DNA from: Niallia alba
GTDB taxonomy: Bacteria > Bacillota > Bacilli > Bacillales > Cytobacillaceae
Length of the DNA stretch: 64,000 nt
NCBI RefSeq assembly: GCF_012933555.1
Contig: NZ_JABBPK010000001.1
Coordinates: 3,946,001-4,010,000, forward strand
Direction of reading: 5' to 3'
Part shown: piece by piece, positions 56,397 to 64,000 of the stretch
How positions within the stretch are numbered: the first letter of the stretch is position 1
Layout: every line of letters starts with the position of its first letter
Position numbers and translations under genes: made by a program
Notes under the pieces: model-generated
Databases searched by the model: none
The model's input: the letters and a program-made list of their open reading frames with translations, nothing else
Told to the model about the DNA's origin: nothing

Positions 56397-57342
56397 ATAA
56401 TTTATAGCTTATCTTATTGAACAATACGACGATAATTAAAAGAACAACCGTAATGGCTGAAGCATACCCCATCTCGTATCGTGTAAAACCAAAATCATTT
56501 GCATGGTCTACAACTAACCAACCAGCATATTGTGGTGGAGGGGTTCCCCCACTTAATGTCGCTGCTAATCCAGAAGCATTAAAGGTTCCGATAATCGCCA
56601 TTACTGCTCCAAATAGCATTTGTGGTTTCATGGAAGGAATCGTAATATAGAATACTTCTTGCCATCGATTACGAATACCATCGATATGTGCCGCTTCATA
56701 TAAGGAGCGGTCAATATTTAGCAATCCTGCAAGCATCGCAAGAAAACCAACTCCCATACTTCCCCACAATCCAATAAAGATCATGATAGGCATCAATAAG
56801 CTTGGTTCCTGTAAGAACTGTAGTGGTTCCTTAATTAGTCCCCATTCTAATAACCAATAGTTAATATAACCTACCTGGTCCCCACTAAATAGCACCCTCC
56901 ATACAACCCCCATCATAATAGGGCCTGTAATGGATGGGGAATAAATGATAACTGTATAGATGGTTCTTATTCGATGAGGAACCTGTGACAATAGCCACGC
57001 AAGAAAAAAGGCAAATATATAACCAAGCGGTCCAACAATAATCGAATAAATTAACATATTGGAGATTGCATTCTGTAGGAATACCGTATCTCCTGTAAAT
57101 AAATCAATGTAGTTTTTGAAACCGATAAACTCAGGCGATTGTACTGTGTTAAAGTACGTAAGGGATAAAACAGCTGCCACAACCACTGGTAGTACGATAA
57201 GGAGTGTAAATAAAGTGACATAAGGAAAAATAAAAAAGTAGGAAGAGTCCTTTATTTTTCTAAAAATGCCATGTATCCTTTTACGCTTTTTTCCTGTATC
57301 GCTAACATCGTTTGGCAGCTTATTCTTGCTGTACTTTTTCAT
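56380..57342 (-). CDS. Sugar ABC permease (MalF type), pair 1
   Basis: 320 aa. Six helices: YFFIFPYVTLFTLLIVLPVVVAAVLSLTYFNTVQSPEF, EAA loop SLYEAAHIDGIRNRWQEVFYITIPSMKPQMLFG. Overlaps the giant SBP by 23 nt and the next permease by 17 nt; GAAGGA ribosome site. Works with the 304-aa permease, probably with the giant SBP as feeder. Confidence 0.92.
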   Translation of the reverse strand: MKKYSKNKLPNDVSDTGKKRKRIHGIFRKIKDSSYFFIFPYVTLFTLLIVLPVVVAAVLSLTYFNTVQSPEFIGFKNYIDLFTGDTVFLQNAISNMLIYSIIVGPLGYIFAFFLAWLLSQVPHRIRTIYTVIIYSPSITGPIMMGVVWRVLFSGDQVGYINYWLLEWGLIKEPLQFLQEPSLLMPIMIFIGLWGSMGVGFLAMLAGLLNIDRSLYEAAHIDGIRNRWQEVFYITIPSMKPQMLFGAVMAIIGTFNASGLAATLSGGTPPPQYAGWLVVDHANDFGFTRYEMGYASAITVVLLIIVVLFNKISYKLFAEKD

Positions 57343-60300
57343 TCCTTCTCACCCACTCTTCTACATTTTCAATGGTTGGAACCTTATACGGTTTGATTAA
57401 TTTTCCATTTTCCATATAACCAAACTCTGTTAATTTACGTTCCAATTCCCTATCAATTATTTTCACTGCCTGATCAATAGCGATTCGAGGATTTTCCTTA
57501 TCAAACACTACTTTATTCCAAGCATTACTAATCTCACGCTCTACCATGTAATCACCTGGAACCTTTCCAGTTGTTTGAATCCAATTCCACTGCTCTAATA
57601 TTTCGCCTTTGGAATCAGATGGCCAAGCACTTTTCTTAAATCCATCGATATTTGCTGTTAAATATAAAAATTGATTTCCTAATATGGACTGAATATTATA
57701 AGAGAAGTTACTTTGCGTATCAGCATTCGCCCACCATTTTAATAATTCCCATGACTCTTCTTTCTTTTTACTATCGCTGAAAATGATCCCTGTACTTCCA
57801 TAAGTTGGATCCCATCGCTCGATAACACCTTTTGAATCTTCGACACCAGGTATAGGCATAACACCCCATTGTCCAGCCAATTCAGGTGCAGCATACTTTA
57901 ATTGGATATACGTATTGGCGTCTCCAATTCCAACTGGTGATTTTCCATTTCTAAAGTTTTGGAAAAATTCAGAAGTAGTGATAGGAATATTGTAGACAGT
58001 AAATAAACTAGTCATAAAATCAAAAGCTTCATAAGCCCCATCCTTATTGATCACAGATTGATTTCCAAATTCATTAAATAATCTACCGCCGAACTGATAA
58101 ATAAATGGCGTAGTTGTATCAAATCCTTTGAATGAATTATTGGATCCAAGTGGGGTATAAAAATTCATATTATACCTTTGAAGCATCGGCACTAATCCAA
58201 CAACATCCTCCCACGTTTGTGGTGGTGTTTCACCTAGAAACGATAAAATATCTTTTCGATAGAATAACAGTTTTACATCTTGCGTTTCCGGAATTGCATA
58301 TACCCCTTCATCATAAATAAAAGGGACAAACGTATTTGGATTAAATTGTTCTGTTAACTCGTAAAATCCATCATACTTACTTAAATCCTCAATAATTCCA
58401 CGTAACGCAAGCTCAAACGGTCTCGCATGACTTACCCCTAATGCAATATCTGGCGTACTATTTGCGGAATTTGAAAGAATAATTTTATTTTCATCTGGTA
58501 ATAAAGATAGATTCACTTTAATTCCTGTATTTGGTGTGAATTCCTCATCTATCATTCGCTGCATAAGTTCTACGTATAATCTCGATTGATTTACCCATAC
58601 TTCAATGGTTTCATCATCAACTACATCCTCTTGATTATATCTAGGATTAAAAAAGGAATAAGTAAATGCTTTCGTACTCTCTACGATGCTTGTAAATAAC
58701 CTTGCATTTGCTTTTGGAATCTTTTCTCCTTCTGTATGAACATAGATCTTATCTAAATGCATTGGATTATACACTAGCATTGGTAAGATCATTTTTATTC
58801 TAGAATAAGCGGAGGTTTCATCTTCGATAAATTTATTCATATAATGCGGAAGGTCTTCTGGATTCTTAATAAATTCTTTTATCACTTTCTGAGCAATTTC
58901 TAGCTCACTTATAATTGGAAGATCATCCATTCCATAACGTTCCTGAAGTGCTTTCTTTTGAGTTTCGATTCTTTCTGATATACCAATTAAATACTCTTTA
59001 ATTTCTGGAATATATCGTTCAATTCTCCACTCTCTTTTTTTATCTACAATTCCACCTGTTAATTTCTTCACATCTTTAGAAACAGAATCAATTGCTTCTA
59101 AGGTAGTCAATAATTCATGATAAATGTCTTTTACATTGGAATGATTAATGGAAAGTGTCAGCGTATGAGCTCCCTTTTCTAAATAAACGGAGAAAGGTGT
59201 TCCTTCATTATCTTTTAATAATTCATTTTTCCAGCTACTAGAATAGGAAAACATATATAGTTCTAGTTCTTTAAATGGTACTTTTCCATCGAATTCAATT
59301 CTTCTAAAGGTCGGCATTCCATTATTTGTATCTTGAGCGTATTTTAAGGTAATATTGTAATATCCACTTTCTTCAACTTCAAAATTATATTGAACACGGT
59401 CTCCAGAATCTCCAAATGAATAACCATCTAACACGTTCAATATTCTATTTTTATAATCATATGGCGTTATTTGTGGATCTCTCACATACTTTGGACGGAT
59501 GCTTTGTTTGTTCTTTTTCGAAATATTTTCTGCTTCAATCGTAATCAACTTATTAGTATCTGTTTTATCCTGTTTATTTTCCGAATAATATTCAGCATAA
59601 GTTGGCGTATCAGATGTAGTATTTGCAATCTCTATATTTCCTACTAAAAGATACCCTTCTGTTACAGATAGCTTAATCGTATTTTTTCCTTTATTTAATT
59701 TAAATTTAAGTGGTTCATATGCAAAATGATTAGGGTCTAGTACCCCTTCTTTCTTCCATTCTAAAACCATATTCGATTTAGGACTTAGCTCATCCCCATA
59801 TCGATCATATTTGCTCCCTTTATCAAGTGTCTCTGTTTGCCAATCTAGTGAAAGATTGAAACTATTCATTTCATTAAATAGTACTTCATCATTAATCTTC
59901 ATAGATACTTCTGCTAATAGATTTGTTTCTGGTAAAATATAATAATCCAACCAAAACTCATATAAACCTTCTTGATCTATTTCAACATCAAAAGTTAGTT
60001 CATCCTTTGGCTCTAAACGAATAACATCTTTTCCATATCCTTCACTTTGGGATGGATCAAATCGTTTTCCACCTTGCATTTCCTCTGGTGTTAATTCATA
60101 CTTCTTGCTGGGAGTGGCAATTTTCTTCGTTTGCCATTGCTTCTCCACCGTATAATAATTGCTTTCACTCTTAAATCCACTAATATAAGCTTCTATAGCT
60201 TCCATGCTTTTTTCTTGTTCTATTTTTGTTAATTCATCATCCGTGCTTTTTTTTAAATTCCCTTTTCCTATTATCATAACGACTGAAATAGCTATGATTA

Positions 60301-60343
60301 GGAGCGTGCAGATCAATAGTATTATTTTCTTTTTTAATGTCAT
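57320..60343 (-). CDS. Giant membrane-anchored solute-binding protein with carbohydrate-binding-like modules
   Basis: 1007 aa, more than twice the usual SBP length. N-terminal hydrophobic anchor (residues 5-25, no lipobox). Two beta-sandwich modules follow (~75-245 with YEFWLDYYILPET and KLNKGKNTIKLSVTEGYLLVGNIEI; ~260-405 with ITLKYAQDTNNGMPTFRRIEF and LEKGAHTLTLSINHSNV), of CBM/DUF5060-like appearance. A helical region lies at ~420-560. A complete SBP domain covers ~585-985 (EVWVNQSRLYVELMQRM, FYRKDILSFLGETPPQTWEDVV, RWDPTYGSTGIIFSD, SWELLKWWANADTQ). Probably binds a long glucan and hands fragments to permease pair 1. ATG 60343 chosen; the 60361 start is less supported. Confidence 0.8.
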   Translation of the reverse strand: MTLKKKIILLICTLLIIAISVVMIIGKGNLKKSTDDELTKIEQEKSMEAIEAYISGFKSESNYYTVEKQWQTKKIATPSKKYELTPEEMQGGKRFDPSQSEGYGKDVIRLEPKDELTFDVEIDQEGLYEFWLDYYILPETNLLAEVSMKINDEVLFNEMNSFNLSLDWQTETLDKGSKYDRYGDELSPKSNMVLEWKKEGVLDPNHFAYEPLKFKLNKGKNTIKLSVTEGYLLVGNIEIANTTSDTPTYAEYYSENKQDKTDTNKLITIEAENISKKNKQSIRPKYVRDPQITPYDYKNRILNVLDGYSFGDSGDRVQYNFEVEESGYYNITLKYAQDTNNGMPTFRRIEFDGKVPFKELELYMFSYSSSWKNELLKDNEGTPFSVYLEKGAHTLTLSINHSNVKDIYHELLTTLEAIDSVSKDVKKLTGGIVDKKREWRIERYIPEIKEYLIGISERIETQKKALQERYGMDDLPIISELEIAQKVIKEFIKNPEDLPHYMNKFIEDETSAYSRIKMILPMLVYNPMHLDKIYVHTEGEKIPKANARLFTSIVESTKAFTYSFFNPRYNQEDVVDDETIEVWVNQSRLYVELMQRMIDEEFTPNTGIKVNLSLLPDENKIILSNSANSTPDIALGVSHARPFELALRGIIEDLSKYDGFYELTEQFNPNTFVPFIYDEGVYAIPETQDVKLLFYRKDILSFLGETPPQTWEDVVGLVPMLQRYNMNFYTPLGSNNSFKGFDTTTPFIYQFGGRLFNEFGNQSVINKDGAYEAFDFMTSLFTVYNIPITTSEFFQNFRNGKSPVGIGDANTYIQLKYAAPELAGQWGVMPIPGVEDSKGVIERWDPTYGSTGIIFSDSKKKEESWELLKWWANADTQSNFSYNIQSILGNQFLYLTANIDGFKKSAWPSDSKGEILEQWNWIQTTGKVPGDYMVEREISNAWNKVVFDKENPRIAIDQAVKIIDRELERKLTEFGYMENGKLIKPYKVPTIENVEEWVRRNEKVQQE

Positions 60344-60391
60344 TTGATCCCAACCTAACAATCAAATTTTCCTTTAAAAGAGAACATCTTT

Positions 60392-62664: not shown

Positions 62665-62696
62665 ATACAATAAAGTAACGAAAAAACTAGAATAAC

Positions 62697-62734
62697 AAAA
62701 GGGAATCAGAATGAAAACATTCTGATTCCCTTTT
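62697..62734. terminator. Strong bidirectional terminator
   Basis: AAAAGGGAATCAGAATG (62697-62713) pairs perfectly with CATTCTGATTCCCTTTT (62718-62734). Stands between the IS1182 remnant and ssrA. Confidence 0.85.
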
Positions 62735-62812
62735 GTTTACAAACTGTGAACTATAGTATAATCTACAGTTCCTAGAAAAAACTTCGCTTTTTGAAGCAAT
62801 TATTTGCCTAAA

Positions 62813-62863: not shown

Positions 62864-62870
62864 ACAAAAT

Positions 62871-62897
62871 AAAAACCACCAAATATGTATTTGGTGG
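62871..62897 (-). terminator. ssrA terminator overlapping the tmRNA 3' end
   Basis: In the minus-strand transcript CCACCAAATA and TATTTGGTGG (62897-62888 and 62885-62876) form a 10-bp stem followed by five T. The stem includes the encoded CCA end of the tmRNA, so 3' processing must open it. Confidence 0.8.
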
Positions 62898-62908
62898 AGA
62901 CGGTGGGA

Positions 62909-63186
62909 CGTGCAATTCCATGCTTTCGTCATGGCACTGACTATATCTTGAACCTGTAATATTTAGTTAGGTCCTTTGGCGTCTTATACGAAATATAAAT
63001 TTACTTAAAAGTAGCATTTCGTATCCTAGTACTACCAAGTTCCTTGGCAGCCTATAAGTCGATACACGGCTGTTGAATTACTTCACATACCGCTCGGCAT
63101 TGCCTTATCACAATCTATGTGACTTAGGTTTCACCGATAAAGCCAAATTTTCACTTGCATGTTACCACACAAGGCGACTAATATTA
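62909..63186 (-). other. Group I intron-like insertion in the tmRNA T-loop
   Basis: 278 nt, no ORF. The 5' exon ends ...GGGTTCGAT and the intron starts TAATATTAGTCG; GTCG can pair with CGAT to put a U-G at the splice site (P1). The last intron base is G (complement of 62909). P7-like strands are GACTTATA (63060-63053) and TATAGTC within AAGATATAGTC (62949-62939), which pair with one bulged base as in group I cores. A P-Q region candidate (AATGCCGAGCGG) lies between. Group I introns in tmRNA T-loops of some Firmicutes have been described, as I recall; self-splicing of this copy is inferred. Confidence 0.85.
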
Positions 63187-63404
63187 ATCGAACCCACGTC
63201 CAGAAACATCGGCACTTAAGCTTCTACGAGTGTAGTCAACATATTCGTATTTCGCTTATTCTTCTGCCTGTTGACAGGCGTCCGATAAGCTAGTCTGGTT
63301 GTTCTCTTCCTTCTTCCTCAGACGGTGGAATCCGGCGTAGCCCACTTAAAGTGAGTCCCTGACCCTACCACATGGGCGATGGAGGGAGGAACCGCTAAGC
63401 GCTA

Positions 63405-63440
63405 TTAAGCAGCTAAAGCGAAGTTGTTTTGTTGTTTGCC
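63405..63440 (-). CDS. tmRNA proteolysis-tag reading frame
   Basis: GGC AAA CAA CAA AAC AAC TTC GCT TTA GCT GCT TAA, encoding GKQQNNFALAA and ending in the ClpXP-recognised LAA. A second stop (TAG) follows. It lies about 98 nt from the mature 5' end, as in other tmRNAs. Confidence 0.93.
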   Translation of the reverse strand, partial: GKQQNNFALAA

Positions 63441-63644
63441 AGTTATAGGCTTTGACGTTTTAACGAGGCCGATCCCCTCGACTCGCAACCTAAGCTCGAA
63501 CTATCCCTGTCGAATCCGTAGCGTCCCCATTATAAGGATAAAATCAAGTAATTGTTACATTACAAGATTCTTAGCATTTAAGCTTAACGTTTCGGAAGCT
63601 CTGAAATAGGAGCTTAAAGTTATGTTGTCTTATCGACATAAATT

Positions 63645-63687: not shown

Positions 63688-64000
63688 TTACATTTTTTGC
63701 CTTTCACGTAAAGCACGTTCAATACTGCGATTTGCTTCTTTACGTTTTAAAGTTTCACGCTTGTCATAGTTCTTTTTACCCTTACCTAGACCAATCAAAA
63801 CCTTTGCATAGCCATTTTTAAAATACAGTTTCAGTGGAACTAAAGCATAGCCCGCTTCTTTTGTATCCCCGATTAACTTATTAATTTGTTTGCGATGTAA
63901 TAAAAGCTTTCTTGTTCTTAATGGATCATGATTATAGCGATTTCCTTGTTCATATGGACTAATATGCATACCAAGCAAGAAGACTTCTCCATTAATAATA
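63688..64000 (-). CDS. smpB: SmpB, tmRNA-binding protein (N-terminus outside window)
   Basis: The frame is open to the window edge; visible residues start within [20 protein letters not shown], then [53 protein letters not shown] and the basic tail [19 protein letters not shown]. All are SmpB signatures; about 104 of ~155 residues are present. SmpB delivers tmRNA to stalled ribosomes, and its tail enters the mRNA channel. It sits directly upstream of ssrA on the same strand, the usual Bacillus order. Confidence 0.96.

Follow-up and report, generated by a model that had tools for sequence, protein, structure and literature searches.

A split ssrA gene beside smpB

The window, by which we mean the whole stretch of 64,000 nucleotides that was analysed, carries near one end a complete tmRNA gene, ssrA, on the minus strand at 63528-62892, with smpB directly upstream; the gene ends were read from the sequence. 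In the direction of transcription the features are as follows.

63688..64000, minus strand: smpB, cut by the window end, directly upstream of ssrA (Pfam PF01668)
62892..63528, minus strand: ssrA precursor, exon 1 + intron + exon 2 (RF00023, 162.7 bits; acceptor stem and CCA by eye)
63187..63528, minus strand: exon 1, 342 nt, ending GGTTCGAT in the T-loop
63405..63440, minus strand: tag reading frame GKQQNNFALAA-stop (by eye)
62909..63186, minus strand: predicted group I intron, 278 nt, without an endonuclease frame (RF00028, 38.1 bits against a gathering score of 50; covariation; empty sites)
62892..62908, minus strand: exon 2, 17 nt, TCCCACCGTCTCCACCA
62871..62897, minus strand: terminator-like hairpin CCACCAAATACATATTTGGTGG and T run, overlapping the CCA end (by eye)

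The Rfam tmRNA model (RF00023) matches 63520-63185 on the minus strand (162.7 bits, E 1.5e-65; gathering score 47), and the match ends inside the T-loop; the rest of the T arm and the acceptor stem follow 278 nt further on, at 62908-62892. By eye, the acceptor stem is GGGGACG/CGTCTCC, with a G-U third pair and an encoded CCA, and the T stem is GTGGG/CCCAC, with a T-loop reading TTCGAT|T. The preliminary description of this DNA had proposed just such a complete tmRNA with its T-loop split by 278 nt, and the model match together with exon 2 bears this out; of the gene span it gave, the end at 62892 stands, whereas the other, 63538, lay 10 nt too far upstream and is read here as 63528. The non-coded alanine presumably stands before the encoded frame GKQQNNFALAA, whose ALAA we take to be the expected end of the tag. 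The product of smpB matches positions 53-142 of the 143 in PF01668 (E 1.3e-35), and the part of the gene inside the window is intact.

The two exons meet, as had been claimed, at 63187|62908, giving GGTTCGAT|TCCCACC, and precise empty sites with matching sequence, GGTTCGATTCCCACC, are present in four relatives (L021, L032, L036 and L037). The insertion lies after T-loop nucleotide 6, which is tmRNA intron position 7 in the numbering of a figure legend in PMC11915505. ARAGORN reported no tmRNA gene in the window and Rfam at its gathering threshold listed the 5' part of the tmRNA only, so that a known arrangement was identified where standard tools miss it. Across the whole genome (5.24 Mb, 2 contigs) there was one RF00023 match above the cut-off, the other 22 lying below it with lengths of 17-91 nt; the reliance on one ssrA assumed at the outset agrees with this count, and because a single ssrA is detected above the cut-off, maturation of the tmRNA should depend on splicing of the intron.

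Elsewhere in the window, an inverted repeat of 19 bp with a short loop at 62695-62736 is perhaps a two-way terminator, and 57320-60361 encodes a 1013-aa protein with weak carbohydrate-binding-like matches and an SBP_bac_1 sugar-binding domain, adjoined by a second SBP gene.

Structure and identity of the insert

One check named in the preliminary description was a search with the Rfam models for tmRNA and for group I introns. The former matched as given above; the latter (RF00028, Intron_gpI) aligned over 63195-62918 and model positions 1-253 of 253 with 38.1 bits and E 2e-8, below its gathering score of 50, in a search of 341 nt with laxer filters, and was not listed in a 4-kb search at E<=1 or in a search at the gathering threshold. 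When the loci of four relatives were searched together, L020 scored 46.2 bits (E 3e-9) and L010, L013 and L016 went unlisted. Up to E 10, the intron stretch matched no Rfam family besides the group I intron and tmRNA. The folding z-score of 62870-63210, a stretch that includes the terminator, was -4.81. Our own intron model, built with the window's copy included, finds one copy in the genome. No frame for a homing endonuclease, of the LAGLIDADG or any other kind, is present in the intron, in keeping with the earlier claim; the longest stop-free frame is 43 codons and thus too short for one.

Helices P1, P2, P3, P4, P5, P5a, P6, P6a, P7, P7.1, P7.2, P8, P9.0 and P9 were drawn by hand, with zero mispairs in the window's copy. 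They are given below with the number of base pairs in which both sides change among 13 aligned introns (12 found by searching 41 genomes, plus the window's own).

63175..63190, minus strand: P1, exon CGAU and intron UA with UAGUCG, splice-site U63187 pairing with G63178; invariant in the 13
63154..63173, minus strand: P2; 3 of 8 pairs
63142..63147, minus strand: P3, 5' strand, partner 62975-62980; 2 of 6 pairs
63094..63137, minus strand: P4-P5-P5a; 5 of 9 pairs in P5/P5a, 0 of 6 in P4
63066..63093, minus strand: P6-P6a; 3 of 9 pairs
63057..63062, minus strand: P7, 5' strand U[C]GACU, in which one C is bulged, pairing with 62938-62942; invariant in the 13
62986..63050, minus strand: P7.1 (63032-63050) and P7.2 (62986-63024), additional hairpins lying between P7 and P3; 2 of 8 and 7 of 9 pairs, 9 of 17 together
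62975..62980, minus strand: P3, 3' strand
62950..62974, minus strand: P8; 0 pairs
62938..62942, minus strand: P7, 3' strand, inside AAGAUAUAGUCA
62910..62937, minus strand: P9.0/P9, with omega-G next at 62909; 0 pairs

In the alignment 97.8% of 1020 cells are paired, and changes on both sides occur in 22 of 80 pairs, as compared to a mean of 9.8 in shuffled alignments (0 of 500 shuffles as high). Further pair types summed over pairs were not unusual (41 against 38.6 in shuffles, 80 of 500 as high), and sliding the structure by 1-3 columns left 31.7-40.6% of cells paired, a weak control since one of the aligned sequences had served for drawing the structure. P3, which spans ~160 nt and is interleaved with P7, is supported by covariation; the pairs of P1, P7 and P9.0 are invariant in the 13 introns, so that covariation neither supports nor contradicts these helices. 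A U at -1, the U-G splice-site pair and a G as the last intron base (omega-G) are found in all 13, and these, like the P7 strands with one bulge, had been picked out correctly in the preliminary description. A P10 pairing of exon 2 with an internal guide was not evident by eye.

Subgroup IA is defined by P7.1/P7.2 hairpins between the P7 5' strand and the P3 3' strand, which is where the window's intron has them, within a group I core made of P4-P6 and P3-P8 domains with P3 and P7 interleaved. Judged by this covarying fold, the insert in the ssrA T-loop is a group I intron of the IA type. Phage IA introns such as td likewise have P7.1/P7.2 between P7 and P3 and a AAGAUAUAGUC P7 strand, and often carry endonucleases; the window's intron resembles them in these hairpins and in the AAGAUAUAGUC strand, but its host gene differs.

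Proposed splicing and comparison with known introns

We consider it close to certain that the single detected ssrA gives rise to a precursor from which an IA group I intron of 278 nt is excised, the intron persisting as a passenger without an endonuclease. The gene would be transcribed with the intron in place after T-loop nucleotide 6; the intron would fold into its P3-P7 core, in which P7 would bind guanosine; the RNA would be cut after U63187, paired with G63178 in P1; and joining of U63187 to U62908 would re-form the T-loop as UUCGAUU. The tmRNA ends would then be finished by RNase P along with other enzymes of tRNA processing, alanine would be loaded, and the mature tmRNA would act with SmpB in trans-translation, while the passenger would be kept by splicing well enough and lost now and then. 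We infer the splicing, its chemistry and its independence of protein from known relatives, by analogy with which the intron most likely removes itself and is very probably active.

A dead intron, with the organism living without functional tmRNA, is a very improbable alternative. It would suit the RF00028 score, which falls below the gathering score, and splicing itself is a prediction from sequence; however, the intron has an intact core with covarying helices, exon 1 shares 98.3-99.4% identity with the exon 1 of three intron-bearing congeners, smpB shows no damage within the window, and the place where an excess of change is seen is a stranded copy in another genome (G060, below). The preliminary description had also suggested that splicing is conditional and gates trans-translation, making this a regulatory intron. 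With one ssrA above the cut-off in the genome, a change in splicing would indeed alter the supply of tmRNA, but the intron stretch holds no Rfam family that would add to the group I and tmRNA matches, the intron's length and core are ordinary, and intron-bearing and intron-free congeners occur in one clade, so that the intron is dispensable; we found no evidence for gating and regard it as improbable.

The intron that we propose to be a spliced passenger has many counterparts. Williams reportedly described tmRNA group I introns at T-loop position 7 in 2002, as papers citing that work relate. A 2025 survey counts 883 unique intron-form tmRNA genes among 97,179, with all 883 introns in the T-loop, most of them at position 7 and those in 21 phyla, mainly Bacillota; an endonuclease is present in 36 of the 883 intron forms, and the founding set has a mean length of 293 nt (PMC11915505). 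The statement in the preliminary description that T-loop introns of tmRNA genes were known from surveys is therefore correct, and its suggestion of a new variant is not supported, the site being the commonest and the length ordinary. The window's intron agrees with the position-7 introns (PMC11915505) in site, -1U, omega-G and Bacillota host, lacks an endonuclease as do all but 36 of the 883, and is of similar length (278 against 293 nt); in the features tested no difference was shown, the one shortfall being its RF00028 score. The 287-nt tmRNA intron of Clostridium botulinum, reported to be self-splicing, is like it in host gene and length class (PMC2729099). We thus conclude that the window's intron is a further member of the catalogued tmRNA-intron class and not new in kind; what is added here are the counts of the -1 base, a probable loss within the genus and stranded remnants in three relatives.

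Distribution, probable loss and stranded copies in the family

The intron model used for family and class searches (R1) matches 106 of 193 genomes of the GTDB family, and 103 have the intron in ssrA once G023, G060 and G159, whose matches are other than intact ssrA introns, are removed. In a class sample of 398 genomes R1 matches 15, and the junctions place 12 of these in ssrA, namely the window's own copy and L069-L079. The exact 5'-junction pattern was found in two records among public genomes, Bacillus sp. 522_BSPC and Sutcliffiella horikoshii. An exact intron-tail pattern had zero matches in viral_contigs, hence no phage-borne copy at that strictness. Four weak R1 matches were excluded as ssrA introns: L080, L082 and L108 (one of two G023 matches) have a P7-like strand with no ssrA T-arm seen, and L081 has neither. 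The group I-like P7 strands outside ssrA, AAGATATAGTC, lie at L080 1724, L082 2590 and L108 2184.

A pattern for the 5' junction that allows C or T at -1 is found in 102 of the 193 family genomes and reads T in all 102 (the 103rd intron, in G045, lies outside the pattern and so is absent from this count). Intron-free T arms, by exact pattern, occur in 84 genomes and have C at -1 in 61. Seven of the 193 genomes fall outside all junction and T-arm patterns, and since the genomes are related these counts are not of independent events. By T-arm type, the intron-free genomes divide as follows.

GTGGG arm: T at -1 in 14 genomes, C in 29
GAGGG arm: T at -1 in 2 genomes, C in 31
GCGGG arm: T at -1 in 7 genomes, C in 1

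That U stands at -1 is already a known rule, C being present in only 15 of the intron forms in the 2025 survey (PMC11915505). The allele GAGGG...CCCTC is found in 33 genomes, 31 of them with C at -1, from 7 genera, and it sets apart the near-identical G007 and G012.

Within the window's genus, a tree of the smpB-side flank places four intron-bearing genomes and two intron-free ones (G012 and G007) in one clade (96/100). G012 carries T at -1 and shares its exon 2 and terminator hairpin with the window; G007 has C at -1 and a GAGGG arm. The two form a sister pair (100/100), which groups with G000, G008 and G009 to the exclusion of the intron-bearing G010 (97/99). The simplest reading of these sequences would be one gain, one loss and then a change of T-arm in G007; separate gains may also have occurred, and the exon 1 tree does not settle these groupings. 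Across the 13 introns, intron identity is correlated with exon 1 identity (Mantel r 0.49, a value reached in 3 of 5000 permutations), which would suit mostly vertical inheritance. In the stretches compared past the terminator, no alignment was obtained between the window's downstream flank and the flanks of its congeners, and the 3' side of ssrA is thus variable in the genus.

Three relatives retain part of an intron outside an intact intron-bearing gene. In G060 (L086 1484-1845, L105 4050-4393) an intron-free ssrA end and terminator are followed by a copy of intron nt ~76-278, 70.6% identical to the window's intron, and then by a second exon 2 with a terminator; from this second exon 2 on, the sequence matches the congener G058, in its ssrA 3' end and flank, at 79% over ~118 nt. 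The copy has 12 changes in 117 columns that are invariant in the 13 introns, whereas six intact congeners have 0, 0, 3, 4, 4 and 5; of the 12, three recur in four of those six. It appears as if constraint had eased in the G060 copy on losing its 5' exon. In G159 (L114 2466-2998) the ssrA has a GAGGG arm with C at -1, and ~90 nt on lie the last 40 nt of an intron and an old exon 2, where ~100 nt agree at 86-90% with the 3' ends of seven intron-bearing congeners, the match with one of the seven covering just 63 nt. In G023 (L106 7312-7598, minus strand, with L107 7097-7481) a contig ends ~1.5 kb away from the ssrA, whose -1 base is C, and on another contig a T-arm copy is followed by the last 41 nt of an intron and an altered exon 2. 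When the final part of another intron, together with exon 2, was used as query, 123 of the 193 genomes matched, and the same three remnants were found again. Three genomes that also have the intron gave a short additional match, either to its 3' end or to exon 2, at G135:C140:111831-111860, G160:C10:502833-502862 and G186:C1:3258695-3258727.

These three remnants suggest, from their arrangement, that introns can be lost by replacement of the ssrA 3' end. DNA with an intron-free T-arm, for example an ssrA 3' end brought by phages or islands as their attachment site, would be joined to exon 1 upstream of the intron, leaving the intron and old exon 2 to decay downstream; the new T-arm would often have C at -1, a base that could not take part in the U-G splice-site pair, and would therefore resist re-invasion. 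A broader proposal, that ssrA introns are lost and their site closed in this way and that islands and introns compete for one T-loop, we put forward tentatively as a possibility. Work by Williams in 2003 reportedly dealt with traffic at the tmRNA gene. A literature search, with subscription papers outside its reach, found no publication dealing with stranded introns of ssrA or with replacement of the T-arm.

Viral contigs commonly carry ssrA 3' ends that lack an ssrA body. In viral contigs (L145-L224), the ssrA 5' motif is missing within 420 nt upstream in 71 of the 80 3'-end loci read, of 92 stretches counted, and 53 of the 71 had 400 nt upstream to look at; these viral ssrA 3' ends are perhaps attachment sites. 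In the family, tyrosine integrases (Pfam) lie ~100-160 nt downstream of intron-free ssrA genes with C at -1 in G018 (L103, L035) and G028 (L038), Pfam having been applied to two ORFs only (L103 and L038), both of which proved to be integrases; convergent ORFs of ~350 aa beside intron-free ssrA had raised the suspicion of integrases. Such neighbours, and the fact that tmRNA genes are known island targets (PMC11915505), might invite the view that the window's insert is itself no intron and instead the end of an island integrated in the T-loop, but an insert of 278 nt without a long frame, with a group I structure that 103 of the 193 family genomes share at this site, makes this scarcely conceivable.

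For the replacement of the ssrA 3' end, the nearest ORF of at least 180 codons was inspected at 39 loci, and most do not look like integrases; this was judged by eye, for most from the first 30 residues and simple motifs and for eight from the whole ORF, with several genomes listed twice, and is no census. Because most nearest ORFs are unlike integrases, homologous replacement without an island is as likely as the island route, which is not shown to be a general cause of intron loss. The comparative set is more useful than the locus itself: within one family, intact introns occur alongside empty sites, T-arms that have changed and stranded remnants, and these coexisting states make intron loss at ssrA, and its possible link to islands at the same site, directly testable.

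Two unannotated records named as Enterococcus phages (PQ520091.1 and OR846644.1), which may be bacterial DNA, contain a stretch 70% identical to exon 1. Two genomes have more than one ssrA gene, three in G043 (L109, L110 and L111) and two in G046 (L112 and L113), and these are 83-90% identical to the window's exon 1.
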